Positions 8,091 through 60,732 of a stretch of 64,000 nucleotides of DNA are shown piece after piece. The position numbers and the translations under genes were made by a program. Under the pieces are notes generated by a model, which worked only from the letters and a program-made list of their open reading frames with translations, searched no databases and was not told the origin of the DNA. How positions within the stretch are numbered: the first letter of the stretch is position 1; every line of letters starts with the position of its first letter. The stretch is from Halalkalicoccus subterraneus (lineage in GTDB: Archaea > Halobacteriota > Halobacteria > Halobacteriales > Halalkalicoccaceae). Where the stretch lies: NCBI RefSeq assembly GCF_003697815.1, contig NZ_RDQG01000021.1:1-64000 (forward strand). Reading direction: 5' to 3'.

Positions 8091-9620
8091 ATGGCCGAGG
8101 ACGACGAGCCCTTCCGGAAGCTGTTCGCCGGCGGGAGCATCGTCTTCATCGGCGAGATGTTCGGGTTGGCGATCTCGTTCCTCTCGACGCTCGTCATCGG
8201 GCGTCTGCTAGGGCCCGAGGGCTACGGTGCGATCGCGCTGGGCTCTGCGGCGCTCGCGACCGCCTCGACGCTCGTTCTCCTGGGAATGCACACGGGTATC
8301 GGGCGATTCCTGCCGCGATACGACGACCCCGAGCGGCGTCGCGGCGTCCTCGTCTCGGCGTTCCAGCTCGTACTCCCCCTCTCGGTGCTCGCCGGGGGGG
8401 TCCTATTCGTCTTCGGCGATTCCATTGCGATGACCGTCTTCGGCGACGAGAGCGTCGCGCCGGTGTTGCGCGTGTTCGGGCTCGCGATGCCCTTTGCCTC
8501 GGTCGAGAAGCTCGCTGTCGGTGGGATCCAGGGAACGAAACGCTCGGCCCCGAAGGTGTTCGTCGAGAACGTTACCGCCCACCTCACGCGACTCCTGCTC
8601 GCCGTGGTCATCCTCTGGTTGGGGTTCGACGCCGCCGGCGTCGCGTGGGCGTACGTGCTCGGTCACGCCGCCGCCGCTACCCTGGGAATGTACTACCTCT
8701 ACCGGTACACGTCGCTGTTTACGCGCACTCCGGCCGTCTCGATGCACCGCGAACTGCTCGCCTTCTCCGCACCGTTGATCATCTCCTCGATCATGGTGAA
8801 GATCCTCGCCGATATCGATACGTTTCTGCTCGGCTATTTCGTCTCGACGGCCGACGTCGGCATCTACAACGTGCTCTACCCGCTCGCGACGATGTTGACG
8901 GCGGTGCTCGCCTCGTTCGGGTTCCTGTTCGTGCCGATCCTCTCGGAGCTGCACGCCGAGGGCGACGTCGCGGAGATGAAACACACCTACCAGCTGGTCA
9001 CGAAGTGGATCTTCATGGTCTCGCTGCCGATCGTGCTGGTGATCGCGCTGTTTCCCGAACTGCTGCTTCGCTACACGTACGGTCCGGACTACACCGAGGG
9101 AGCGCTCGCGCTGTCGATCCTCGCGGGCGGCTTTTTCGTCCACGCCGTCGCCGGTCCCAACTACAAGACGCTGACCGCGATGGGCAACACCCGCCTGATC
9201 ATGGTCGACAACATGGGTGCCGCGTTGCTCAACGTCGCGCTGAACGTCGTTTTCATCCCACGCTATTCCTACCTCGGCGCGTCGGTCGCGACCGTCATCT
9301 CGTATCTCGCGCTCAACATCGCGTACTCGACACAACTGTACACGCGAACCGGGATCCACCCCTTCTCCCCGTCGCTGTTCAAGCCCGCGATCGCCGCGAC
9401 CGCCTCCATCGGCGCGATCTATCTCGTCGTCACCTCGATCGTGACCGTCACGCTCCCGGTGTTCCTCCTCATGTTCTCGCTCTTTCTCGCGATCCACGCG
9501 GTCGTGACTCTGCGCCTCGGCGGGATCGAACGCGAGGAAGTCCTCCTCGTGCTCGACTTCGAGGAGCGACTCGGCGTCGACCTCGGCCCCGCAAAGACGA
9601 TCGCGAAACGCTTCCTCTGA
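8091..9620 (+). CDS. Polysaccharide/oligosaccharide flippase (Wzx-like, MATE/MOP superfamily)
   Basis: 509 aa with about 12-14 hydrophobic segments. The opening fits the polysaccharide transporter branch of the MOP superfamily: FAGGSIVFIGEMFGLAISF, then LLGPEGYGAIALG. The characteristic central segment is FLFVPILSELHAEGD. Such proteins flip lipid-linked glycans across the membrane (compare AglR in Haloferax, suggested for dolichol-phosphate-mannose). It sits 79 bases downstream of ftsY and upstream of an exported beta-helix protein and a GT-C-like protein, so a role in surface glycan export is likely. The substrate is not predictable. Confidence 0.85.
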   Translation: MAEDDEPFRKLFAGGSIVFIGEMFGLAISFLSTLVIGRLLGPEGYGAIALGSAALATASTLVLLGMHTGIGRFLPRYDDPERRRGVLVSAFQLVLPLSVLAGGVLFVFGDSIAMTVFGDESVAPVLRVFGLAMPFASVEKLAVGGIQGTKRSAPKVFVENVTAHLTRLLLAVVILWLGFDAAGVAWAYVLGHAAAATLGMYYLYRYTSLFTRTPAVSMHRELLAFSAPLIISSIMVKILADIDTFLLGYFVSTADVGIYNVLYPLATMLTAVLASFGFLFVPILSELHAEGDVAEMKHTYQLVTKWIFMVSLPIVLVIALFPELLLRYTYGPDYTEGALALSILAGGFFVHAVAGPNYKTLTAMGNTRLIMVDNMGAALLNVALNVVFIPRYSYLGASVATVISYLALNIAYSTQLYTRTGIHPFSPSLFKPAIAATASIGAIYLVVTSIVTVTLPVFLLMFSLFLAIHAVVTLRLGGIEREEVLLVLDFEERLGVDLGPAKTIAKRFL

Positions 9621-45202: not shown

Positions 45203-46081
45203 GTGACTTCCAATACAGGCCAGGCCCAGCGGGTCGTTGATACCGTCGACCTCATCTCGAAGAAGTGGCATCCGGTGATCATCCACCGGCTGCTCGAAGA
45301 GGGAGGGCCGTTACGGTTCAATGAGATCAAAGACCGCGTTGATGGCATCTCCGCGAAGGTCCTCACGGACAGTCTGGCGGACCTGACGGAGAACGAACTG
45401 TTGTGTCGGACCGTCGTGAGCGAATCACCGCTTCGCGTCGAGTACGAACTGACGAACACGGGACGAGAGCTTCAGGACGCGCTCGAAGCACTCGCGGCGT
45501 GGGGCGATCGACACCTCGATCCGGACCCCGATCCGACCGTGTTAATAGTCGACGACGACCCACGGCTGGTGAACATGCACGCCAGCTGGCTCGACCCCGA
45601 TCACACCGTCAAACGGGCGTACGACGGCGAGGAGGCGTTCCGACAGCTCGATGAGTCAGTCGACGCGGTGGTGCTCGATCGTCGAATGCCGGGCGTCTCC
45701 GGCGAGGACGTCCTCGCGCGGATCCGCGAGTGGAACCTCGACTGCGGCGTCGTAATGCTCTCGGCCGTCGAACCGGACTTCGATATCGTCGATATGGGGT
45801 TCGACGATTATATCGTCAAACCGGGGTACCGACACGAGGTTCGCGAGGCCGTTACCGACGTTCTCGCGCGCGAGATGCATGACGAACCCCTTCGGGAGTA
45901 CCTCGCACTGTCGGCCAAGGAGTCGCTGTTGCGCGCCGAGAAATCCGACGTCGATCTCGCGGCTAGCGACGAGTATACCGCACTCAGCGAGCGGATCGCG
46001 TCGCTCGAATCGAAACTGGACGACCCGTCCGAGGCCGCTGACGACGCTCGACTCCGGGCGATCGTCAACGACGGGTCCTGA
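45203..46081 (+). CDS. HxlR-type HTH / receiver / HalX fusion regulator
   Basis: 292 aa from GTG 45203, supported by an AGGAGA site. Residues 1-105 form an HxlR/MarR-like winged helix (KKWHPVIIHRLLEEGGPLRF, ISAKVLTDSLADLTENELL). Residues about 112-225 are a receiver domain with the acceptor Asp in VVLDRRMPGVSG (about D159). Residues about 226-280 are a HalX helix (MHDEPLREYLALSAKESLLR, AEKSDVDLAASDEYTAL). HalX response regulators normally lack an N-terminal DNA-binding domain, so this fusion is unusual. A receiver-histidine kinase follows on the same strand. Confidence 0.87.
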   Translation: MTSNTGQAQRVVDTVDLISKKWHPVIIHRLLEEGGPLRFNEIKDRVDGISAKVLTDSLADLTENELLCRTVVSESPLRVEYELTNTGRELQDALEALAAWGDRHLDPDPDPTVLIVDDDPRLVNMHASWLDPDHTVKRAYDGEEAFRQLDESVDAVVLDRRMPGVSGEDVLARIREWNLDCGVVMLSAVEPDFDIVDMGFDDYIVKPGYRHEVREAVTDVLAREMHDEPLREYLALSAKESLLRAEKSDVDLAASDEYTALSERIASLESKLDDPSEAADDARLRAIVNDGS

Positions 46082-47403: not shown

Positions 47404-48657
47404 ATGTCTGAGCGACTCGACGTCGCGTTCGTCCCGGCCGAATGTCCGGGAAGCGACGGCACCGGCGCGACGCACAGCTCGACGGTATACATCGAACACC
47501 TCTCACACCACCACGACCTGACGGTGTATGTCTCGACGCAGATGGACGCCGGGGAGGCGACGCTCCCGGCCACCAACCGCGTCGAGTACGTCCTCCACGA
47601 TGGGCTCCCGAAACTCCCGCACCCGATCTTCACGAAGATCGACGCCCTTCGCGAGGAGAGCGACGCCCTCGAACGTCACGACCTGGTTCACTCTTACTCC
47701 TCGGCGTTCATCCCGGTGCTCGCGGACCTCGACGTTCCGACGCTTCTCACGCTCAACTCCTACTTGCCCGTCTGTCCGAAGGCGGACATGATGTACCACG
47801 GCGAGCGCAAGTGCTCGGGGCCGGGCCGACTCAAATGCGCAACCTGCGTGCCTGCGACGGGCCTCAAGCGGAGACAGGGGCTCGAAGCTGAACTCAGGCA
47901 GGGGTACGTTTCGATGGGTCAGATCCCCTTCGTTCAACGATCGATGGACCGAGCGAACGAGATCACCGCGTATCACGCGCTCTCGCCGCATTTAAAGAAC
48001 GACTACGCACAACTCGGGTTCCCTGCGGAGGCGACGACTGTCGTTCCGCACTTCTACGACGAGGAGTTCTACCGGCCGCGCAAGGACCCGATCGAACCCA
48101 CCGAGCCGATCGACGCGCTGTACGTCGGCGCGCTGCAGGACATCAAAGGGATCGACACGCTCGTCCGGGCGCTCGCGCTACTCCGTCGGCGCGGGCGCGA
48201 CGTCGAACTCCGGATCGCCGGTCGTGGGCCGCTCGAACCGCAGCTCAGGGAGCTCGCGACCGACCTCGGCGTGAACGACGCGATCACGTGGCTGGGCTAT
48301 GTCGATCACGGGAAACTCCCCGATCTCTATCAGTCCTCGGACGTGTTCGTCTACCCGGGCATCATCGACGAACCGTTCGGACGGGTCATGCTCGAAGCAC
48401 TCGCGGCCCATACCCCGATCGTCAGCGCCGACGTCGGCAGCATGGACTACATCGTCGGACCGGCCGGAACGCTCTTCGAACCCGGCGACCCACAGTCGCT
48501 CGCGTCGGCGTTCGATACCCTCTCTGAGGACTACACGTCGTATCGGGAGGCTATCCCCCATCAGTTGGAACGCTTCGCGCCAGAAACGGTCATCGACTCG
48601 TTCTGTACGCTCTATGCGGAGACGGCTGCGACGACTGACCCTGATCGCTCAACGTAG
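47404..48657 (+). CDS. GT4 family glycosyltransferase
   Basis: 417 aa GT-B fold enzyme. The N-terminal domain includes GTGATHSSTVYIEHLSHHHD, and a cysteine cluster (VCPKADMMYHGERKCSG, then CATC) seen in a subset of GT4 enzymes near their acceptor site. The C-terminal domain has ALYVGALQDIKGIDTLVRAL, and LEALAAHTPIVSADVGSMDY provides the nucleotide-sugar E-x7-E-like region. It would transfer a sugar to a lipid- or glycan-linked acceptor at the cytoplasmic face. It is the first glycosyltransferase of the large locus and ends about 100 bases from the convergent sequon-rich lipoprotein gene. Confidence 0.88.
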   Translation: MSERLDVAFVPAECPGSDGTGATHSSTVYIEHLSHHHDLTVYVSTQMDAGEATLPATNRVEYVLHDGLPKLPHPIFTKIDALREESDALERHDLVHSYSSAFIPVLADLDVPTLLTLNSYLPVCPKADMMYHGERKCSGPGRLKCATCVPATGLKRRQGLEAELRQGYVSMGQIPFVQRSMDRANEITAYHALSPHLKNDYAQLGFPAEATTVVPHFYDEEFYRPRKDPIEPTEPIDALYVGALQDIKGIDTLVRALALLRRRGRDVELRIAGRGPLEPQLRELATDLGVNDAITWLGYVDHGKLPDLYQSSDVFVYPGIIDEPFGRVMLEALAAHTPIVSADVGSMDYIVGPAGTLFEPGDPQSLASAFDTLSEDYTSYREAIPHQLERFAPETVIDSFCTLYAETAATTDPDRST

Positions 48658-48753: not shown

Positions 48754-49116
48754 CTAAGACTGATTCTCTTCGGAATCGTTACCGAGACCTTCGGAGTCGT
48801 TCTCCATCTCGGAATCGTTACCGAGGCCTTCGGAGTCGTTCTCCTCGGAGTCGTTACCGAGACCTTCGGAATCGTTCTCCATCTCGGAATCGTTCTCCTC
48901 TTCGCTACCGAGGCCGCCTTCGGAGTCGTTCTCCATCTCGGAGTCGTTCTCCTCTTCGCCACCGAGGCCGCCTTCGGAGTCGTTCTCCTCACCCTCGGAG
49001 CCGTTATCCTCGCCCTCGCCGCCTCCGTTGCCGCTGTCGGTACATCCCGCGAGCGCGAATACACTTGCTGCGCCTGCTGCTTCGACGAATCGCCGTCTGC
49101 TGAGTTTCTCTTGCAT
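48754..49116 (-). CDS. Tat lipoprotein composed of N-glycosylation sequon repeats
   Basis: 120 aa. The N-terminus combines a twin-arginine motif (SRRRFVEAAGAASVFALAGC) with a lipobox cysteine at residue 25, so it should be an exported lipid-anchored protein. The mature 95 residues are Gly/Glu/Asp/Asn/Ser only, built from units such as ENDSEGLG and ENDSEM. They contain twelve Asn-x-Ser sequons (ten NDS, one NGS, one NQS), about one per eight residues. No folded domain is visible. A likely role is a heavily glycosylated surface brush or acceptor. It is divergent from a transmembrane wHTH regulator. Confidence 0.8.
   Translation of the reverse strand: MQEKLSRRRFVEAAGAASVFALAGCTDSGNGGGEGEDNGSEGEENDSEGGLGGEEENDSEMENDSEGGLGSEEENDSEMENDSEGLGNDSEENDSEGLGNDSEMENDSEGLGNDSEENQS
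48757..48990 (-). repeat. Tandem short repeats inside the sequon lipoprotein gene
   Basis: Units of about 12-39 bases containing GAGAACGACTCCGA (minus strand) recur many times, with occasional synonymous changes (GATTCC for GACTCC). Such arrays expand and contract by slippage, so repeat number probably varies between strains. Confidence 0.75.
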
Positions 49117-49440
49117 TTGTCTTCCCCCGGTGACCCTTAGTGGCCGAACGGGGTTTACTATATATCGGCTAAATCTTTGACGACCGATCGAACCCGACCT
49201 AGCTGATCGAAAGGGTATGAATGTAGCTGAAAGTGGCCGGAACCGGCCTACTCCGATGATCGATCAAAAACAGCCTCTCGACACCTATAACGGGCGTTTG
49301 AACCGATTCAACTCTATATTATGATATTTTTATGGTACCATTTCGTCCTTCCACACACGAAAAGGGACATTAAGGAGTGGCCGGTAGTAGGTGTCGAAGA
49401 CGAATGATTCGGTTATCGCCCTGCACGACCCGCACTTTCC
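49117..49440. other. Divergent intergenic region with promoters on both strands
   Basis: 324 bases, no gene seen. ACTATATATCGG (49158-49169) is a TATA candidate for the minus-strand lipoprotein about 45 bases away. TCTATATTATGATATTTTTATG (split at about 49312-49333) may serve the plus-strand regulator, giving a leader of about 80-100 nt. A palindrome at 49235-49248 lies between them. Confidence 0.5.
49235..49248. promoter_or_regulatory. Palindromic operator candidate
   Basis: GGCCGGAACCGGCC is a 6+6 inverted repeat around AA, midway between the two divergent promoters. It is a plausible site for a dimeric wHTH protein; no binding data exist. Confidence 0.35.
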
Positions 49441-50613
49441 ATGCCATGGAGACACATGGATAGGGGAGTTTCCGTTCCCGTCGGGCTGCTCGCAGCGTTC
49501 GTCGTTTTGGTGGCGCTCGTGGTCGGCGTCGCCGGTGGGGCACCCCTCGCCGACGATCCGAACGACGCCAGCGGCGCGACCGGCGTCGACAGCGACTCGA
49601 TTGGTATTCATAACGCGTCCGTCGGTGGACAGGGATATATCGAGGGGCAGGAGGAGCTCGTCTCCGAGCATCCCGGTCCGGCCTACGTCTGGTCGACCGA
49701 GCCGTTGACGGTCAACGCGACCGTCGGCGGCGCGGCCGACGAGGAGTATACGGTCTGTGCGGAAGCCACCGACACGGACGGCGACGTCCTGTCGGAGCTC
49801 GGCTGTCAGAACGTCACGTCCGCCGGTGGCGATCAGACCGTCGAGTTCGGGATCGAGGGCTGGTCGGACTATCAGGGCGAAAGCTGGATCACCATCGAAG
49901 TCCGCGACGGGAGCGACACGGTGACCTACTACGAAACGGTCCCGGTCACCGTGCTCCAGCCGGATGGCGACCTCTCGGGTGACGGGTTGACCAACGCCGA
50001 GGAGGTCAGATACGGCACCGACTTCACCACACCCGACACGAACGGCGACGGACTGACCGACTGGGAGGAGGTGAAGGTCCACGGGAGCGACCCCCTTGAA
50101 ACCGACACGAGCGGCGACGGGGTCAGCGATGCGGCCGCGGTCCGCCTCGGACTCGACCCGACGATCCCGTATCTCCCCTACGTCTACGTCGGCGGCGGTC
50201 TCTTGCTCGTCGGCATCGTCGTCGTGGGCGGCGGCGCGTTGGGCTGGCATCTCATGCGCCGGTACACGAGCGGGAATCCCGTAGAGACGACGGACCACGA
50301 GCCGACGATCGACGACTCCTCGGGCGAGCCCCGACCCGCTCCCCCGACCGACGACCCGGTTTCCGAACCGGCACCGGAACGCGACAGTGAGGGACTACCC
50401 CTGACCAAAGAGGAAGAGATCTGCCGGCTCCTGCGCGAACACGAGGGTCGGATGAAACAGTCCCAGCTCGTCGACCGGACCGAGTGGTCGCAAGCGACGG
50501 TCAGTCGTCTCGTCTCGAAGCTCGAAACCGACGGCACGATCACCAAGCTCCGTTCGGGACGGGAGAACATCGTCGAACTCCGGACGCCCGAATCGGAGCC
50601 TTCTGACGCGTAA
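49441..50613 (+). CDS. Transmembrane regulator: exported domain, TSP3-like repeats, TM helix, cytoplasmic wHTH
   Basis: 390 aa. A signal/anchor (PVGLLAAFVVLVALVVGVAG) leads to an extracytoplasmic region with beta structure (about 45-180). Ca-binding thrombospondin type 3-like units follow (LSGDGLTNAEEVRYGTD, DTNGDGLTDWEEVKVHGSD, DTSGDGVSD). A membrane helix (YVYVGGGLLLVGIVVVGGGA) and a Pro/Asp-rich linker connect to a C-terminal winged helix (about 320-378: EICRLLREHEGRMKQSQLVD, WSQATVSRLVSKLETDG). It could carry surface status directly to DNA. The same wHTH occurs in the 60142-60732 protein. Confidence 0.82.
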   Translation: MPWRHMDRGVSVPVGLLAAFVVLVALVVGVAGGAPLADDPNDASGATGVDSDSIGIHNASVGGQGYIEGQEELVSEHPGPAYVWSTEPLTVNATVGGAADEEYTVCAEATDTDGDVLSELGCQNVTSAGGDQTVEFGIEGWSDYQGESWITIEVRDGSDTVTYYETVPVTVLQPDGDLSGDGLTNAEEVRYGTDFTTPDTNGDGLTDWEEVKVHGSDPLETDTSGDGVSDAAAVRLGLDPTIPYLPYVYVGGGLLLVGIVVVGGGALGWHLMRRYTSGNPVETTDHEPTIDDSSGEPRPAPPTDDPVSEPAPERDSEGLPLTKEEEICRLLREHEGRMKQSQLVDRTEWSQATVSRLVSKLETDGTITKLRSGRENIVELRTPESEPSDA

Positions 50614-51615
50614 TCAGTCGATCAGCGCGAGTCGCGTGGTCTCGTCCGCGGTATCGGGCGACGGGTTCTCCGGTGCGTCGCCGTGATAGAGGAGGAACCA
50701 GATGTAGACGTCGCCGTCGGTCGTCGGCCCGGCCTCGTACGCGGTCCGCTCGGTTTCGCCGTCCTCGACGGTGGTCTCGAACCGATCGAACTCCGTCCCG
50801 TTACCGACGTTCTCGACGGTCCGTCCGTCATCGCTCAGGGAGACCTCCTGCTGGTAGACGACCGTCGTATACGTCTGTGTCTCGCCCTCGTGGTTCTCGA
50901 TACCGACCGTTATCGGGGCGGTCTCGCCCGCCGAGAGGTTCGTCGGAAGGTCCGTTGCCGTCAGGTTCCCGTCGTCGTTCTCCGAGAGCAAATACAGCTC
51001 CGTGTGGGGCTCCTCGTCCGGCAACGACGGGGCGGCGATCGCCATGTACGCCCCGCCGACGAGCAGGACGAGCAGACTGAACACGAGCGTGACGTTCAAC
51101 AGGACGTGGCGTTTGTTCTCCGGTTCGAACGCCTGCCGGTGCTCCCCACGACGACGGTTTCGAACCCGAAAGAGGTTCGGGATGCCACTAACCGAGGCGC
51201 CGATACCCGGTCCGTACCGGTTTTCGGGAACGACCCGGGCGCGCCTGAGGAGTCCGACCAGCCCGAAGAACACGCTCCAGGCGACGACTGCAACGCCGAT
51301 CGGCAGGAGCGTGATACCATATGGAGTGAAGTTCGCGGCGTACGCGATCATCGAGACGATCGCGAGACTCAGCGCGATCGACAGGACGACGCGTTCGACG
51401 GTGCCGAGTCCCTGACCGTCCTCGTCCGGCGCTTCGGGAAAGAGCGCGCTGATGAGGGCGTATCCGGGCAGCAACAGGACGAGCGGGAGGGCGAGTGCGA
51501 TACGGATCGGCGTGATCGTCGTCCCGAGGACGAGGATTCCGACCGCGGCGAGTGCACTGAAGAGGACGAGAGCGAGGAGGTCTCCCGCCCACCGGTGGGG
51601 CTTCATTTCCTCCAC
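50614..51615 (-). CDS. DUF1616 membrane protein
   Basis: 333 aa. Four N-terminal helices (LLALVLFSALAAVGILVLGT, LALPLVLLLPGYALISALFP, VLSIALSLAIVSMIAYAANF and the following helix) match DUF1616. A basic loop and a further helix (LLNVTLVFSLLVLLVGGAYM) precede an extracytoplasmic beta domain (LYLLSENDDGNLTATDLPTN). That domain has sequons NLT, NLS and NGT and resembles a CARDB-like fold. DUF1616 proteins often occur beside archaeal S-layer glycosylation genes, but no activity is known. An ATG at 51606 is an alternative start. Its stop abuts the stop of the wHTH gene with no gap. Confidence 0.83.
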   Translation of the reverse strand: MEEMKPHRWAGDLLALVLFSALAAVGILVLGTTITPIRIALALPLVLLLPGYALISALFPEAPDEDGQGLGTVERVVLSIALSLAIVSMIAYAANFTPYGITLLPIGVAVVAWSVFFGLVGLLRRARVVPENRYGPGIGASVSGIPNLFRVRNRRRGEHRQAFEPENKRHVLLNVTLVFSLLVLLVGGAYMAIAAPSLPDEEPHTELYLLSENDDGNLTATDLPTNLSAGETAPITVGIENHEGETQTYTTVVYQQEVSLSDDGRTVENVGNGTEFDRFETTVEDGETERTAYEAGPTTDGDVYIWFLLYHGDAPENPSPDTADETTRLALID

Positions 51616-51799: not shown

Positions 51800-51928
51800 A
51801 TGACCACGACATCACTCTCCCCTGTCGTCCCGTCTACCGGGCCGACGACAGGACACGACTACATCACCCGATCGGCGTTCGAGACCCCTCGTGCCGACGG
51901 ACTGCGTCCCTTCGGGGGCAACAGATGA
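51800..51928 (+). CDS. 42-aa ORF leading the wbp-like operon (uncertain)
   Basis: ATG 51800 opens a frame (MTTTSLSPVVPSTGPTTGHD) of 42 codons whose TGA overlaps the aminotransferase start by four bases (ATGA). It is Thr/Pro/Gly-rich without recognised motifs. It may be a coupling leader or a small protein. The long stretch between the TATA box and ATG 51925 favours something functional here, but third-position bias is weak over such a short span. Confidence 0.4.
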   Translation: MTTTSLSPVVPSTGPTTGHDYITRSAFETPRADGLRPFGGNR

Positions 51929-53013
51929 TCCCCATTGCGAACCCCGACATCGGCGAGGGCGAACAGGAGGCCGTCGCGGACGTCCTCGATTCGGGCTACA
52001 TCGCGAGCGGCGACGTCGTCACCGACTTCGAAGAGGAGTTCGCCGCGTTCTGCGAGGCCGATCGCGGCGTCGCGACCGCGAACGGCACCGCCGCCCTTCA
52101 CGCGACCTGCGAAGCGCTCGACGTGCGGGGACAGGCGGTCGTCACGACGCCCTTCTCGTTCGTCGCGACGGCGAACTCGATCCGACTCGCGGGCGGCGAA
52201 CCGGTGTTCGCCGACATCGACCCCGAGACGTACAACCTCGACCCCGACGCGGCCGAGGCGATCCTGCGCGAACGCGAGGACGTCGCGGCGATCATGCCGG
52301 TGCACCTCTACGGTCTGCCGGCCGCGATGGATCGGTTCGTCGAACTCGGCGAGGAGTACGACGTCGCCGTGATCGAGGACGCCGCACAGGCACACGGCGC
52401 GACCGTCGACGGCCGACCCGTCGGCTCGATCGGCGACGTCGCCTGCTTTTCCTTTTACCCGACGAAGAACATGACGACGGGCGAAGGGGGAATGGTGACG
52501 ACGGACGACCCCGAGATCGAGGCCGGCGTTCGCCAGTTCATCAACCACGGCCGCGACGGCAGCGCCCAGTACGCTCACACGTCCGTCGGCCACAACCTCC
52601 GGCTGACGAACATCGCCGCCGGGATCGGGCGCGTCCAGCTCGATCGGCTCGAAGAGTTCACCGAGGCCCGCCAGGACAACGCGAGGCGACTCACCGACGG
52701 GCTCTCCGACACGGGGGTCGAAACGCCGGTCGTTCCGGACGACAGGACCCACGTCTATCACCAGTATACGGTCCGTACCGAGGACCGCGATGGACTCAAG
52801 GAAGCGCTCGAACGGGCCGACGTCGGAAGCAAGGTCTACTACCCGACCTGCATCCACGAACTCGCCGCCTACGATGGCTACAGCGCCGACGTCCCGAACG
52901 CGTCCCGTGCATGCGACGAAGTGCTCTCCCTGCCGGTTCATCCGCACGTCTCGGCGGACGATATCGATCGGATCGTTGATGCCGTCGCGGACGCTGGGGT
53001 GAACCATGTCTGA
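51925..53013 (+). CDS. DegT/DnrJ/EryC1 family aminotransferase (WbpE-like)
   Basis: 362 aa PLP-dependent sugar aminotransferase. The PLP lysine is in FYPTKNMTTGEGG (about K181). GTAALHATCEALDVRGQAVV and DVRGQ...TTPFSFVATANSI form the cofactor pocket, and the Asp binding the ring nitrogen is in VIEDAAQAHGA. WbpE of Pseudomonas aminates the 3-keto intermediate of UDP-GlcNAcA. The immediately downstream dehydrogenase, overlapping by eight bases, is a WbpB-like partner, which supports that assignment. Start ATG 51925 overlaps a small upstream ORF. Confidence 0.88.
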   Translation: MIPIANPDIGEGEQEAVADVLDSGYIASGDVVTDFEEEFAAFCEADRGVATANGTAALHATCEALDVRGQAVVTTPFSFVATANSIRLAGGEPVFADIDPETYNLDPDAAEAILREREDVAAIMPVHLYGLPAAMDRFVELGEEYDVAVIEDAAQAHGATVDGRPVGSIGDVACFSFYPTKNMTTGEGGMVTTDDPEIEAGVRQFINHGRDGSAQYAHTSVGHNLRLTNIAAGIGRVQLDRLEEFTEARQDNARRLTDGLSDTGVETPVVPDDRTHVYHQYTVRTEDRDGLKEALERADVGSKVYYPTCIHELAAYDGYSADVPNASRACDEVLSLPVHPHVSADDIDRIVDAVADAGVNHV

Positions 53014-53983
53014 GCAGCCTCCGGTCAGGGTGGGCGTCATCGGCGTCGGCAGCATGGGCCAGAACCACGTTCGCGTCTATCGGGAGCTACCCGAAACCGA
53101 GCTCGTCGGGATCCATGACGTGGATATGGAGCAGGCGCGCTCGGTCGCCGAGGCGTTCGGCACGGACGCACTCGATATGACCGACCTACTCGAGTCGGTC
53201 GACGCCGTTTCGATCTCGGTCCCGACGCAGTTCCACTACGACACCGCCCGCGAGTGTATCGAGGCCGGCGTCAACGTTCTGGTCGAGAAACCCCTCGTCG
53301 AGGACCTTGCGGACGGCCGGGCACTGATCGACTTCGCCGACGAACGCGACGTCGTTCTGCAGGTCGGCCACATCGAGCGGTTCAACCCGGCGGTCATGAC
53401 GCTGATGGAACTGCTCGACGATATGGAGATCATCGCGATCGAGGCCCGCCGTCTCGGGCCGCCGCTCGATCGGGAGATCGATGACACCGCCGTGATGGAC
53501 CTGATGATCCACGACCTCGACATCGTGCTGTCCATCTTCGGGGAAGAAGCAGAAGAGGTCCACGCCGTCGGTGCGCGGGACACGAACTACGCCACGGCGA
53601 CGATCCAGACCCCGTCCGGTCGGATCGGGCAGTTCACCGCCAGCCGCGTGACCCAGCAGAAGGTCCGCGAGCTAACGATCACCGCCGATAAATGTCGAGT
53701 GGTCGTCGACTACATCGACCAGTCGATCGAGATCACTCGCCAGTCGCTCCCCGAATACGTCGATCAGGAGGGCTTTCGCTATCGCCATGAGAACGTCGTC
53801 GAACAGGTGCTCGTCGAACGCCGCGAGCCGCTGAAAAACGAGCTCTCGGCGTTCGCCGAATCGGTCAGAACCGGCACCGAACCGGTCGTGACCGGTGAGG
53901 ACGGTCTTCGAGCGCTCTCGCTCGCACGCGAGATCGACGGGCTCGCCGCCCCGAAACAGGACGCACCGACTGACACCCTTTGA
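53006..53983 (+). CDS. Gfo/Idh/MocA oxidoreductase (WbpB-like)
   Basis: 325 aa. The N-terminal Rossmann fold has VGVIGVGSMGQNHVRVYREL, and the family active-site motif is VLVEKPLVEDLADG with the conserved Lys. The C-terminal alpha/beta domain includes DLMIHDLDIVLSIFGE, where a His is near the expected catalytic position. In the Wbp pathway the enzyme oxidises C3 of UDP-GlcNAcA to the 3-keto sugar, which WbpE then aminates. Its start lies within the last codons of the aminotransferase gene, so the two are translationally coupled. Confidence 0.86.
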   Translation: MSEQPPVRVGVIGVGSMGQNHVRVYRELPETELVGIHDVDMEQARSVAEAFGTDALDMTDLLESVDAVSISVPTQFHYDTARECIEAGVNVLVEKPLVEDLADGRALIDFADERDVVLQVGHIERFNPAVMTLMELLDDMEIIAIEARRLGPPLDREIDDTAVMDLMIHDLDIVLSIFGEEAEEVHAVGARDTNYATATIQTPSGRIGQFTASRVTQQKVRELTITADKCRVVVDYIDQSIEITRQSLPEYVDQEGFRYRHENVVEQVLVERREPLKNELSAFAESVRTGTEPVVTGEDGLRALSLAREIDGLAAPKQDAPTDTL

Positions 53984-54010
53984 GACGACTCATGTACCAG
54001 CCATCACCCG

Positions 54011-54027
54011 GGAGAGCGACACTCTCC
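54011..54027 (+). terminator. Hairpin between wbpB-like and wbpD-like genes
   Basis: GGAGAG and CTCTCC form a perfect 6-bp stem with loop CGACA, 28 bases after the upstream stop. There is no T-tract, so it may be a processing or attenuation hairpin. Confidence 0.35.
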
Positions 54028-54058
54028 TATAGCTTGCACACAAATACACCCATGAGTT

Positions 54059-54100
54059 ATGTCCGAGAAACAACCGAAAAACGGAGGGATCGCTGAATGA
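54059..54100 (+). other. 13-codon ORF and strong Shine-Dalgarno before wbpD-like gene
   Basis: ATG 54059 ([13 protein letters not shown]) ends in a TGA overlapping the next start by four bases. GGAGGGA at 54083-54089, seven bases before ATG 54097, is an unusually good ribosome binding site for a haloarchaeon. Confidence 0.4.
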
Positions 54101-54690
54101 GCGACACGCGCCTCGATCTCGGCGAGGACTGCGTCATCGACGACCCCGACACCGTGGGATATCTCCACGACGAATCGGCCGATCCTGCCGTCATCGGTGA
54201 TCGGGCCCGCATTCGCAAGGGGACGATCGTCTACGCGGACGTCGAGATCGGGGACGACTTCACGACGGGTCACAACGCCCTCGTACGCGAGGAGACGACC
54301 ATCGGCGACGACGTGATCGTCGGTACGGACACCGTCATCGACGGTACGACCGAGATCGGCTCGCACGTCAGCCTTCAGACCGGCGTTTACGTCCCGACGG
54401 ACACGACGATCGGCTCGAACGTCTTCGTCGGTCCGCGTGCGGTGATGACGAACGACCCCTACCCCGTCCGGCAGGACGACGACCTCGTGGGCCCGACCCT
54501 CGAGGACGGCGTCTCGATCGGCGCGAACGCGACGATCCTCCCCGGGGTGCGCATCGGCGCGGGCTCGTTCGTCGCCGCGGGGGCGATCGTCACCGAGGAC
54601 GTTCCTCCGCACACCCTCGCGTTGGGGACGCCCGCGCGACACCGCGACCTTCCCGAGTCACTCTCGGGGGAGAACCTACTCCATGAGTAA
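54097..54690 (+). CDS. Hexapeptide-repeat N-acetyltransferase (WbpD-like)
   Basis: 197 aa left-handed beta-helix. Hexapeptide turns run through [20 protein letters not shown], then [20 protein letters not shown] and [20 protein letters not shown]. The last is the conserved active-site loop of WbpD/PglD-type sugar N-acetyltransferases. It would acetylate the 3-amino group introduced by the upstream aminotransferase, giving UDP-GlcNAc3NAcA. The downstream dehydrogenase start lies inside its last codons. The His expected in the catalytic loop of some relatives is not obvious here. Confidence 0.87.
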
Positions 54691-56071
54691 TACAGTACGG
54701 AGCGCTCCGGCGCTCTACGGCTCCGAGGCATCGACGGACGAACAACGCAGTGCCCTGACCGGTGGCGAGATCCCCGTTGCGGTCTACGGACTCGGCAAGA
54801 TGGGACTGCCCCTCGCGTCGGTCTACGCCGACGTGACCGGTAACGTCACCGGGATGGACGTCGACCCCGAGGTCGTCGAGGGCGTCAACGCCGGTGAGAA
54901 CCATATCACTGGTGAACCCGGCCTCTCGGACCTCGTGGGCGAGGTCGTCGACCGGGGCGCGTTCTCGGCAACGACCGACGGCGCTGCGGCCGCGGAGGCC
55001 GCCCGAATCCACGTCGTGATCGTGCCGACGCTGGTCGACGAGGACAGCAAACCCGACCTCTCGGTCGTCGAGACGGTGATGGAACAGATCGCCTCGGGAC
55101 TCACACCCGGCGATCAGGTGATCCTCGAATCGACGGTGCCCCCCCGCACCTGTCGTGACGTGGTCGCTCCGCTGCTCGCCGAGGAAAGCGGACTGGACCG
55201 CGAGGAGTTCGGCGTCGCCTTCTGTCCCGAGCGCACCGCGAGCGGGCGGGCGATCGAGGACATCCGTGGGGCCTACCCCAAGATCGTCGGCGGGATCGAC
55301 GCAGAGAGCACCCGCGTAGCCGAACTGATCTACGGCGAGATCAATAGCCAGGAGATCATTCCCGTCTCGGACGCGACGACCGCGGAGGCGGTCAAGGTGT
55401 TCGAAGGGGTGTATCGCGACGTCAACATCGCGCTCGTGAACGAGCTGACGAAACACGCCGAAGAACTCGAGATCAACGTTCTGGAGGCGATCCAGGCCGC
55501 GAACACCCTGCCGTTCTGTGACCTGCACATCCCCGGTGCGGGCGTCGGGGGTCACTGCATCCCCTACTACCCGCACTTCCTGATCCAGATGTTCGATGCG
55601 GACTCGCGGCTGATGGAACTCTCTCGCGAGATCAACGACACGATGCCGACCTACACCGCGGAACTCGCCCTCTCCGGGCTGACGAAGCACGGAAAGGAGA
55701 CCGAGGGAAGCGACGTGCTCGTCCTCGGGCTGACCTATCGGGCCGGCGTCGACGAGCTGCGCGCGACGCCCGCGGTGGGCGTCATCGAGCGTCTCGCGAG
55801 TGCGGGCGCGAACGTCACCGCGGTCGATCCGATCACCGACTCCTACGAACCGTTCGAGGACGCGGGCGCGGAGGTCACCTCGCTCGACGATGCGCGCGAG
55901 CGAAGCTACGACGCGGTCGTGCTGGTGACCGCCCAGGAAGCGTTCGAGGAGCTCGAGATACCTGCGCTGGCGACCGACGACCCGCTGGTGGTCGTCGACG
56001 GCCGGCAGGCCCTGACGGAGCTACAGAATGAACACGGAATCTACTACAGAGGGATCGGTATCAATGCCTAA
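54683..56071 (+). CDS. Nucleotide-sugar 6-dehydrogenase (WecC-like)
   Basis: 462 aa UDP-sugar dehydrogenase. The N-terminal NAD domain has [20 protein letters not shown]. The catalytic cysteine lies in [13 protein letters not shown] (about C292), and the central helix segment is [20 protein letters not shown]. The family oxidises the C6 hydroxyl of UDP-hexoses to a carboxylate in two NAD steps. Overall features (GEPGLSD near residue 75, YYPHF) look closer to UDP-ManNAc dehydrogenase WecC than to UDP-Glc dehydrogenases. It overlaps both neighbours (8 bases each). Confidence 0.88.
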
Positions 56072-57359
56072 TTCCACAACGAAAACGGTCTGTATCGTCG
56101 GCCTCGGTTACGTCGGCCTGCCGCTCGCAAGCGCCTTCGACGAGGAGGGGCTCGACGTGATCGGCTTCGACGTCGACGAGGAGAAGATAGCGGAACTTTC
56201 GGAGGGTCGCGACCCGACCGGTGAGATCGGCGACGACGTCGTCTCGAAAAGCGGGATCGAGTTCACGACGGATCCGGCTCCGATCGAGCGTGCCGACTAC
56301 GCCATCATCACCGTGCCGACGCCGGTCGACAGCATGAAGAACCCGAATCTCGACTTCGTCGAGAGTGCGGGTCGGACCGTCGGCGAGCACCTCTCGACCG
56401 GCACGACCGTCGTCCTCGAGTCGACCGTCTACCCGGGCGTCACGCGGGACGTCCTCGGCCCGGCGATCGAGGAGGCCTCGGGGCTGACCCAGGGTGAGGA
56501 GTTCAACATGGGGTATTCGCCCGAGCGGCTCTCTCCGGGGACTGATAAGAGTCTCCGCGAGGTCAAGAAGATCGTCAGCGGCGACACCGACGAGACGCTC
56601 GAGGACTTAGCCGCGCTCTACGGTACCATCATCGACGCCGGGCTTTATCACGCTGAGACCATCGAGGCCGCGGAGGCGGCGAAGGTCCTCGAGAACATCC
56701 AGCGTGACGTGAACATCGCGGTCGTCAACGAGCTCGCGCTGATCTGTGACCACATGGGACTCGACACGCAGGAAGTGATCGATGCGGCGTCCTCGAAGTG
56801 GAACTTCCATCCGTACACGCCGGGGCTCGTCGGTGGTCACTGCATCCCAGTTGATCCCCTGTTCCTAGTGCATGGCTCCGAACGCGCGGGATACTCGCCG
56901 AAGCTCATCCTCCAGGCCCGCGAGGTCAACGAGTACATGCCCAAACACACCGCGGAGCTCACGCTCAAGGCGCTCAACAAGTCCGGCAAGGTGCTTCAGG
57001 ACAGCCGGCTGGTCGTGCTCGGACTCGCGTACAAGCCCAACGTCGGCGACCTTCGAACCTCCGAGATCGGCGGCGTCATCACGACGCTTGCCGAGTACGG
57101 AATCGAGTGTGACGGTTACGACCCCCTCGCACCCGACGAGAAGATCCGCGAGTCGTTCGGGATCGACCCGCTTTCCGAGATGGACTTCGACGGCGCGGAC
57201 GGGATCGTGCTGGCGACGCCCCACGACGAGGTTCTCGAGGAGTTCGATCTCCGAGCGGCGAAAGAGCAACTCGCCGACGATCCCGTTCTCGTGGACGTGA
57301 AAGGCGTGCTGGATCAAGCCGAGGTCGAGGAGGTCGGTTATGCCTACCGCAAGCTCTGA
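56064..57359 (+). CDS. Nucleotide-sugar 6-dehydrogenase (WbpA/TviB-like)
   Basis: 431 aa from ATG 56064, overlapping the preceding stop. The NAD motif is VGLGYVGLPLASAF, the catalytic cysteine is in LVGGHCIPVDPLFLVH (about C260), and YSPERLSPGTDKSL is typical of the WbpA/TviB/WbpO group that uses UDP-GlcNAc or UDP-GalNAc. It is clearly different from the upstream WecC-like enzyme, so the operon encodes two uronate-forming steps. Its product would be the UDP-GlcNAcA needed by the WbpB/E/D-like enzymes. It overlaps the DUF354 gene by 20 bases. Confidence 0.88.
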   Translation: MPNSTTKTVCIVGLGYVGLPLASAFDEEGLDVIGFDVDEEKIAELSEGRDPTGEIGDDVVSKSGIEFTTDPAPIERADYAIITVPTPVDSMKNPNLDFVESAGRTVGEHLSTGTTVVLESTVYPGVTRDVLGPAIEEASGLTQGEEFNMGYSPERLSPGTDKSLREVKKIVSGDTDETLEDLAALYGTIIDAGLYHAETIEAAEAAKVLENIQRDVNIAVVNELALICDHMGLDTQEVIDAASSKWNFHPYTPGLVGGHCIPVDPLFLVHGSERAGYSPKLILQAREVNEYMPKHTAELTLKALNKSGKVLQDSRLVVLGLAYKPNVGDLRTSEIGGVITTLAEYGIECDGYDPLAPDEKIRESFGIDPLSEMDFDGADGIVLATPHDEVLEEFDLRAAKEQLADDPVLVDVKGVLDQAEVEEVGYAYRKL

Positions 57360-59546: not shown

Positions 59547-59575
59547 GCGTGGCCCGGTATGTCATATGTGTCGAA

Positions 59576-60142
59576 ATGATGTCGACTATCAATGCGGAGC
59601 AATCCTCCTCGGGCGATACCGTGGAGGCTGCCCCCTCTGAAGGATCCCTTTCGCGCGATGATATGTTCCATGTCCTTCAGAACGAGCGTCGTCGCCGTGT
59701 TCTACAGTATCTCTCGGACACGGAGGGGCCTGTCGACATGCGCGATATCGCAGAACAGGTCGCCGCCTGGGAACACGATACGACCGTTCAACAGCTCACC
59801 TCCGATCAACGGCAACGCGTCTATATCGCGCTGTACCAGTCTCACCTCCCGAAACTGGCCGATTTCGATCTCATCACCTATAACCGAAACCGTGGCGTCG
59901 TCGAGCGGACTGCCCTCGCCGATGAAGTCGCGCAGTATCTCGATCCCAACGGCGCGAACGACCACTCCGACGGAAACACCACGTGGACGCGCTACTATGG
60001 CGGGACGACCCTCGTTAGTATCGGTCTGATCGCACTCACGGCACTCGGTATCTTGCCGTTTACCAGCATCGCATTGGCATCCGTAATAACGGCTATGTAC
60101 GCGATAGTCACAGTGGGATTCACGCGATGGTCGGACGATTGA
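59576..60142 (+). CDS. DUF7344-like winged-helix protein with two membrane helices
   Basis: 188 aa from ATG 59576. MFHVLQNERRRRVLQYLSDT, then GPVDMRDIAEQVAAWEHDTT and RVYIALYQSHLPKLADFDLI match the ArsR-like winged helix common in haloarchaea (DUF7344, from memory). The C-terminus has two helices (TTLVSIGLIALTALGILPFT and IALASVITAMYAIVTVGF). It is therefore a membrane-associated putative DNA-binding protein. It overlaps the next membrane wHTH gene by one base (TGATG), so the pair is co-translated. Confidence 0.82.
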   Translation: MMSTINAEQSSSGDTVEAAPSEGSLSRDDMFHVLQNERRRRVLQYLSDTEGPVDMRDIAEQVAAWEHDTTVQQLTSDQRQRVYIALYQSHLPKLADFDLITYNRNRGVVERTALADEVAQYLDPNGANDHSDGNTTWTRYYGGTTLVSIGLIALTALGILPFTSIALASVITAMYAIVTVGFTRWSDD

Positions 60143-60732
60143 TGGCTGATTTAGGGAGTACAATAGTCCCACTCACCGGTACGACAGACGTCCGTGTCGG
60201 TTCACCGAGTTACGTCGGTTTCGCCTCATCGGGGGAAGCGACCGTGGACACCTCCTCGTCCCGATACGGCATCGGAGTCGGATTCGGTCCCGGAGCCGTT
60301 GCACTGCAGTCGACGCCCGGTATCGACTGCATGATGGCGCTCATCGTCGGTCTGCTAGGTGGCATGCTCGCTGGAATGGCGATCTCCCGTGCTCGTGTGT
60401 CCGAGCCCGACAACCCCTCGGGAAAGGTCCCGTGGACACCGCCGATGGCTGCGGACGACACTGAGACCACCACTGCGGATCGAACGTACGACGGGGACCG
60501 GGCGTTAACCGACGAAGAGCGTGTCGTTCAGTTATTGAGCGCGCACGAGGGGCGCATGAAGCAATCACGGATCGTCGACGAGACCGACTGGTCGAAGGCG
60601 AAAGTCAGTCGGTTGCTCTCGGCGATGGCGGAACGCGACGAGATCACGAAGCTGACGATCGGGCGGGAGAACATTATCTTCCTCGGCACAGTGGACGAGG
60701 GCTACGTCTCAGGCGAGGGTTCGAAGCGCTGA
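60142..60732 (+). CDS. Membrane-anchored winged-helix protein
   Basis: 196 aa from ATG 60142; an ATG at 60127 is also possible. A roughly 60-residue N-terminal segment is followed by one membrane helix (MALIVGLLGGMLAGMAISRA, about 65-84). A linker follows, then a winged helix (about 132-187: VVQLLSAHEGRMKQSRIVDE, WSKAKVSRLLSAMAERDE, GRENIIFLG). That domain is closely similar to the wHTH at the end of the 49441-50613 protein. It is probably a membrane-tethered regulator working with the DUF7344-like partner. Confidence 0.8.
   Translation: MADLGSTIVPLTGTTDVRVGSPSYVGFASSGEATVDTSSSRYGIGVGFGPGAVALQSTPGIDCMMALIVGLLGGMLAGMAISRARVSEPDNPSGKVPWTPPMAADDTETTTADRTYDGDRALTDEERVVQLLSAHEGRMKQSRIVDETDWSKAKVSRLLSAMAERDEITKLTIGRENIIFLGTVDEGYVSGEGSKR

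Follow-up and report, generated by a model that had tools for sequence, protein, structure and literature searches.

Among eukaryotic glycan carriers, CD52 holds a single N-glycan on a GPI anchor, and mucins are O-glycosylated. The closest described archaeal systems are from Haloferax volcanii, where 45 N-glycoproteins have been identified (PMC8241124). The many exported proteins that are AglB substrates in this species include lipobox proteins, a DUF1616 protein, and a transmembrane glycoprotein/HTH protein (PMC8241124 Table 1). HVO_1944 is annotated as a transmembrane glycoprotein/HTH protein, and its locus number adjoins that of another N-glycoprotein, HVO_1945 (PMC8241124). The Hfx. volcanii N-glycan is the tetrasaccharide Glc-GlcA-GalA-MeGlcA; haloarchaeal N-glycans can be acidic (PMC8241124). 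Glycosylated sites show little preference at position x of the sequon besides the exclusion of Pro (PMC8342417).

We analyzed a window of 64,000 nucleotides from Halalkalicoccus subterraneus (G000; contig NZ_RDQG01000021.1) that encodes a short lipoprotein in which Asn occurs almost exclusively in N-x-S sequons (Table 1). The initial annotation, which gave no strand, had described a Tat/lipobox signal ending at Cys25, twelve Asn-x-Ser sequons in a mature chain of about 95 residues, and no folded domain; all three descriptions hold for this minus-strand ORF. The signal reads MQEKLSRRRFVEAAGAASVFALAG ahead of C25, and the twin-arginine motif, short hydrophobic stretch, and Cys-terminated lipobox of haloarchaeal Tat lipoproteins are present (SRRRFVEAAGAASVFALAG, then C25) and conserved in the genus; we infer lipidation at Cys25. 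The mature chain (C25 to S120, 96 aa) contains 13 Asn, with 12 in sequons (ten NDS, one NGS, and one NQS), Asn30 being the sole exception; the final NQS forms the C-terminus, directly followed by the stop codon. Acidic residues number 38 and FILVWY residues five, and Lys and Arg are absent. A Pfam search with the lipoprotein returned 0 families above the gathering score, and a single-sequence AlphaFold2 model had a mean pLDDT of 57 and a pTM of 0.12, consistent with a disordered mature chain. The protein combines a predicted unfolded repeat-rich chain, dense glycosylation motifs, and a variable repeat number, all features of a mucin-like or glycan brush protein. Its 12 N-x-S sites in a predicted exported chain, together with a full AglB encoded in the same genome (G000:C79; TIGR04154, 866 bits, above cut-off), are likewise features of AglB-dependent N-glycoproteins.

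Table 1. Features of the lipoprotein locus and its surroundings, in window coordinates.
Feature	Position	Strand	Basis or remarks
GT4-family glycosyltransferase, converging neighbour	47404..48657	+	syntenic in G002, G004, G006
Sequon-repeat lipoprotein gene, 120 aa	48754..49116	-	ORF; codon-position G+C 0.68/0.41/0.69; syntenic orthologues
Acidic, predicted disordered sequon repeat, Asn38 to Ser120, 12 N-x-S	48757..49005	-	sequence, DNA repeats, composition, AlphaFold2
Cys25, predicted lipid-anchor cysteine	49042..49044	-	lipobox ALAG, then C
Tat signal peptide, SRRRF motif and lipobox, residues 1-24	49045..49116	-	near letter-for-letter conservation in genus
Divergent promoter region common to the lipoprotein and regulator genes	49117..49440	.	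70% mean column identity, 4 genomes
Membrane-anchored putative regulator	49441..50613	+	signal segment, beta-rich outer domain with two conserved Cys, TSP3 repeats, TM helix, DUF7343 winged helix
DUF1616 membrane protein	50614..51615	-	syntenic
Nucleotide-sugar block: DegT aminotransferase, Gfo/Idh oxidoreductase, hexapeptide acyltransferase, two UDP-sugar dehydrogenases	51925..57359	+	

Shuffling of the mature chain gave a mean of 2.0 sequons, and none of 2000 shuffles reached 12. The DNA of the gene is a tandem-repeat array (periods 18, 21, 39, 54, and 75) in which the NDS codons are near-identical between copies (AAC GAC/GAT TCC). The sequons within this gene are young tandem copies; because of their near-identical DNA the 12 sites are not independent, and the gene alone cannot show selection on the sequon.

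The genome encodes a close paralogue at another site (G000:C25), also with 12 sequons and away from any regulator. Syntenic orthologues occur in three relatives (G002, G006, and G004), flanked by the same GT4 glycosyltransferase on one side and the same divergently transcribed protein on the other. That of G002 carries 13 N-x-S sequons, twelve with Glu at x (NES), and those of G006 and G004 consist of acidic repeats with no Asn. The regulator-adjacent gene of the sister genus (G007 and G009) is likewise acidic and Asn-free. Acid density per residue is 0.63 to 0.79 in the Asn-free members versus 0.38 to 0.40 in the two sequon-bearing members of the same genus, an approximately twofold difference. 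The regulator tree unites G000, G006, and G004 and places G002 outside them, so either the sequons disappeared at least from the G006/G004 lineages or they arose twice. Homologues that keep the repeats and lose the Asn-x-Ser pattern had been named beforehand as evidence against a glycan carrier, and the Asn-free acidic tandem repeats of G004, G006, G007, and G009 are, taken literally, of this type; the wider comparison below nevertheless favors use of the sequons in members that have them.

We searched the regulator against 394 genomes of the order and inspected the surroundings of 50 matches (L045-L074 and L155-L174), scanning for lipoproteins by lipobox, hydrophobicity, and acidity, criteria that are blind to Asn and sequons. 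A short low-complexity lipoprotein adjoined the regulator in 25 of the 50 loci, in several haloarchaeal families and in two orientations, with mature lengths of 60 to 139 aa. With its paralogue in the same genome and these 25 loci, the protein is one member of a widespread class rather than a singular case. In a scan of named genomes with the regulator alignment, unrelated TSP3 proteins dominated, and the Haloferax and Haladaptatus matches had no such adjoining lipoprotein. Several regulator-linked lipoproteins (L057, L062, L066, L072, and L168) contain EETT/METT-type repeats with few Asn and are possibly O-glycosylated instead; the Thr-richness of several class members may point to O-glycosylation. 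In G002, more sequon-rich lipoproteins lie away from the regulator (L028, about 8985-9434, plus strand; L196; L027, 9594-10169), among them an 85-aa chain with 12 of 12 Asn in sequons, a 60-aa chain with 8 of 9, and an N-x-S/T-rich linker that precedes an apparent cupredoxin-like domain.

Sequon statistics were computed on 22 regulator-linked mature chains, leaving out the near-duplicates L060 and L063, L071 (a possible domain), and L054 (an extra domain). In these chains, 126 of the 131 Asn fall in sequons compared with 27.4 expected from shuffling; in the excluded L071 the count is 17 of 18. Ser or Thr occupies position +2 from Asn in 96% of cases, and every other offset from -4 to +6 shows 4 to 20%. 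When repeats were collapsed to 34 dissimilar contexts, 31 kept Ser/Thr at +2. Plain chance or composition as the source of the sequons is ruled out by the shuffles and the offset spectrum. The repeat units differ between lineages (NDS, NES, NDT, NAT/NGT, NMS/NMT, and NET), and in G015 synonymous Thr codons (ACG 5, ACT 4, ACC 2) underlie a preserved NDT pattern. The lipoprotein of that genome (L157, 2867-3202, minus strand) ends in a VGNDT/AGNDT run, a nearly pure five-residue sequon polymer.

For comparison, in ordinary lipoprotein linkers of this genus and its sister genus, taken from genomes with AglB, sequons accounted for 40 of 104 Asn (15 expected), with Ser/Thr at +2 in 39% and at other offsets in 10 to 17%; per-protein sequon fractions differed between the regulator-linked class and these linkers (Mann-Whitney p 1e-5). 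The confinement of Ser/Thr to +2, combined with different units in different lineages, argues for selection on the sequon itself. In this class the pattern looks selected rather than a mere by-product of repeat amplification, and near-total confinement of Asn to sequons across lineages is hard to explain without selection for glycosylation.

These counts also bear on the alternative that the lipoprotein is simply a lipid-anchored acidic disordered spacer or polyelectrolyte, as is common in haloarchaeal lipoprotein linkers, with unused sequons that arose by accident when an Asn/Asp/Ser/Glu/Gly-rich repeat was amplified. The syntenic members, the four Asn-free ones included, all share just one feature, acidic disorder free of Lys and Arg, and Lys and Arg are absent from all 22 regulator-linked chains. 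Asn-to-Asp requires one base change, the repeats without Asn are readable as the same GLG-containing unit after N-to-D and S-to-D/E replacement, and the NDS copies are near-identical in DNA, all as a spacer would predict. However, composition and amplification leave unexplained why Ser/Thr should recur at exactly +2 across differing units and persist in the collapsed contexts, and the corresponding values of 39% in ordinary linkers of the genus and 5% in an AglB-less species also speak against unused sequons. We judge a bare spacer unlikely.

The AglB-less species is G006, of the same genus, in which neither TIGR04154 nor PF02516 detected an AglB/STT3; among genomes of the order (completeness filter 95), 391 of 393 have one. 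Its orthologue has zero sequons, and in its other lipoprotein linkers 1 of 20 Asn (5%) lies in a sequon. Among exported proteins, 13 of 195 Asn are in sequons in G006 versus 102 of 526 in G000, G001, and G002 (Fisher p 1.8e-5), a comparison based on heuristic home-made gene calling and on a looser classifier that replaced a stricter one yielding too few proteins. Neither set shows sequon enrichment in G006. Sequons in exported proteins of the genus thus track N-glycosylation, and G006 is possibly a naturally N-glycosylation-free haloarchaeon. In the second AglB-less genome, G309, which is fragmented, there are only 4 linker Asn, and its AglB-bearing genus mates have only 8, too few to be informative.

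Sequons were not retained in all orthologues of AglB-bearing species: G004, G007, and G009 encode AglB and their orthologues are Asn-free. The absence of sequons thus does not require loss of AglB, and whatever function the locus has does not depend on glycosylation. The rule of sequons if and only if AglB, drawn from G000 and G002 against G006, is ruled out by these three genomes. With three of the four genomes carrying Asn-free orthologues being AglB-positive, the sequons appear to be selected yet dispensable on a polyanionic anchored chain. The constant part of the group is a putative lipid-anchored polyanionic disordered chain, and sequons are a common but dispensable decoration. One reading is that glycans and acidic side chains could be alternative routes to the same hydrated brush.

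On balance, we favor a role as a lipid-anchored glycan/polyanion brush, that is, a Tat-exported, Cys25-lipidated, and AglB-glycosylated unfolded acidic chain, as the probable one. Tat export and subsequent lipidation of Cys25 would tether the chain of ~95 residues to the outer face of the membrane, AglB would attach N-glycans at many of its Asn-x-Ser sites, and the resulting brush would occupy the space between membrane and S-layer. Dense neighboring sequons may be only partly occupied. The protein part would act as a scaffold whose repeat number and unit change freely, with conservation acting on the anchor, disorder, negative charge and, in most lineages, the restriction of Asn to sequons. 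Expression of the lipoprotein is probably tied to the divergent membrane-anchored winged-helix protein and the surrounding surface-polysaccharide genes. What the computation establishes is the anatomy, the predicted disorder, the cross-lineage sequon constraint, the presence of AglB, and the synteny; we infer lipidation, glycan occupancy, brush function, and regulation. The dedicated glycan carrier or brush originally proposed is strengthened by the cross-lineage confinement of Asn to sequons and by AglB in the genome; its dedication to glycans sits poorly with the four Asn-free syntenic orthologues.

The neighboring winged-helix protein and the genes around it offer another view of the locus. 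Four species conserve the upstream block of each gene, that of the lipoprotein start and that of the regulator, despite differing repeats, and the outer domain of the regulator (residues 55-172) is a predicted beta-sandwich with weak, partial fold matches that include a porphyran-binding CBM and the biofilm matrix protein RbmA. Regulator homologues occur in sugar gene clusters. The initial annotation had placed the lipoprotein in a locus rich in glycosyltransferases and nucleotide-sugar enzymes, an assessment confirmed by the GT4, GT2, DegT aminotransferase, Gfo/Idh, two UDP-sugar dehydrogenase, hexapeptide transferase, and glmS-like genes of the window. The outer domain of the DUF1616 protein contains NLT and NLS where G006, G004, and G002 have Asp/Glu for Asn, another gain or loss of sequons at the locus. 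Genes for a DUF7344 protein and another DUF7343-like winged-helix protein (59549-60732, plus strand) lie directly upstream of the glmS-like gene; on Haladaptatus plasmids, regulator homologues likewise adjoin glmS and nucleotide-sugar dehydrogenase genes. A protein at 45203-46081 (plus strand) has the unusual single-protein domain order HxlR helix-turn-helix, response-regulator receiver, HalX.

The lipoprotein could alternatively be a signalling partner, a reporter of glycosylation or surface state that is read by the outer domain of the regulator, which would then adjust the surrounding polysaccharide genes, and this seems improbable to us: the conserved promoter of the divergent pair, the recurrent adjacency across families and orientations, the fold matches, and the sugar gene clusters favor it, but half of the regulator loci lack such a lipoprotein, the G000:C25 paralogue and two further sequon-rich lipoproteins of this kind in G002 sit away from any regulator, and the fold matches are weak and partial. 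In its envelope-surveillance form, in which the adjacent winged-helix protein would read the glycosylation state of a disposable sequon-saturated lipoprotein to tune surface-sugar genes, and the chain would become purely acidic when AglB is lost or unused, we find the idea similarly doubtful.

A glycan/polyanion brush, if glycosylated, would make these proteins archaeal counterparts of mucin-like or CD52-like glycan carriers, with N-glycans and a lipid anchor as their basis. AglB would have in them natural substrates of very high site density, and the space between membrane and S-layer would gain a new component. A sequence test for N-glycosylation under selection comes from the restriction of Asn to sequons, with the naturally AglB-less relative G006 as a control, and the recurrent pairing with a membrane-anchored winged-helix protein makes the regulatory link testable. 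Archaeal lipoproteins and AglB-dependent glycoproteins are already known; the sequon-repeat class looks new, and in the open-licence literature we found no description of near-all-sequon proteins, of the lipoprotein-regulator pairing, or of DUF7343.

Comparison with known systems disclosed both similarities and differences. Ordinary haloarchaeal Tat lipoprotein linkers share the signal type, the acidic low-complexity sequence after Cys and, in this genus, sequon enrichment; they lead to a folded domain, whereas the present protein is all linker, with far stronger confinement to sequons. Eukaryotic CD52, CD24, and mucin-type carriers are short unfolded lipid-anchored peptides whose main role is glycan carriage, which the proposed way of working resembles by analogy; they are non-homologous to this class, which has an archaeal lipobox and up to 13 N-sequons. 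The AglB-dependent N-glycoproteins of Hfx. volcanii (S-layer glycoprotein, pilins, and lipobox proteins) are likewise exported, carry N-x-S/T sites, and belong to an AglB host (PMC8241124). The lipobox proteins listed there have 1-2 identified sites, with no near-all-sequon protein described (PMC8241124), whereas the Halalkalicoccus lipoprotein is composed of little but candidate sites.
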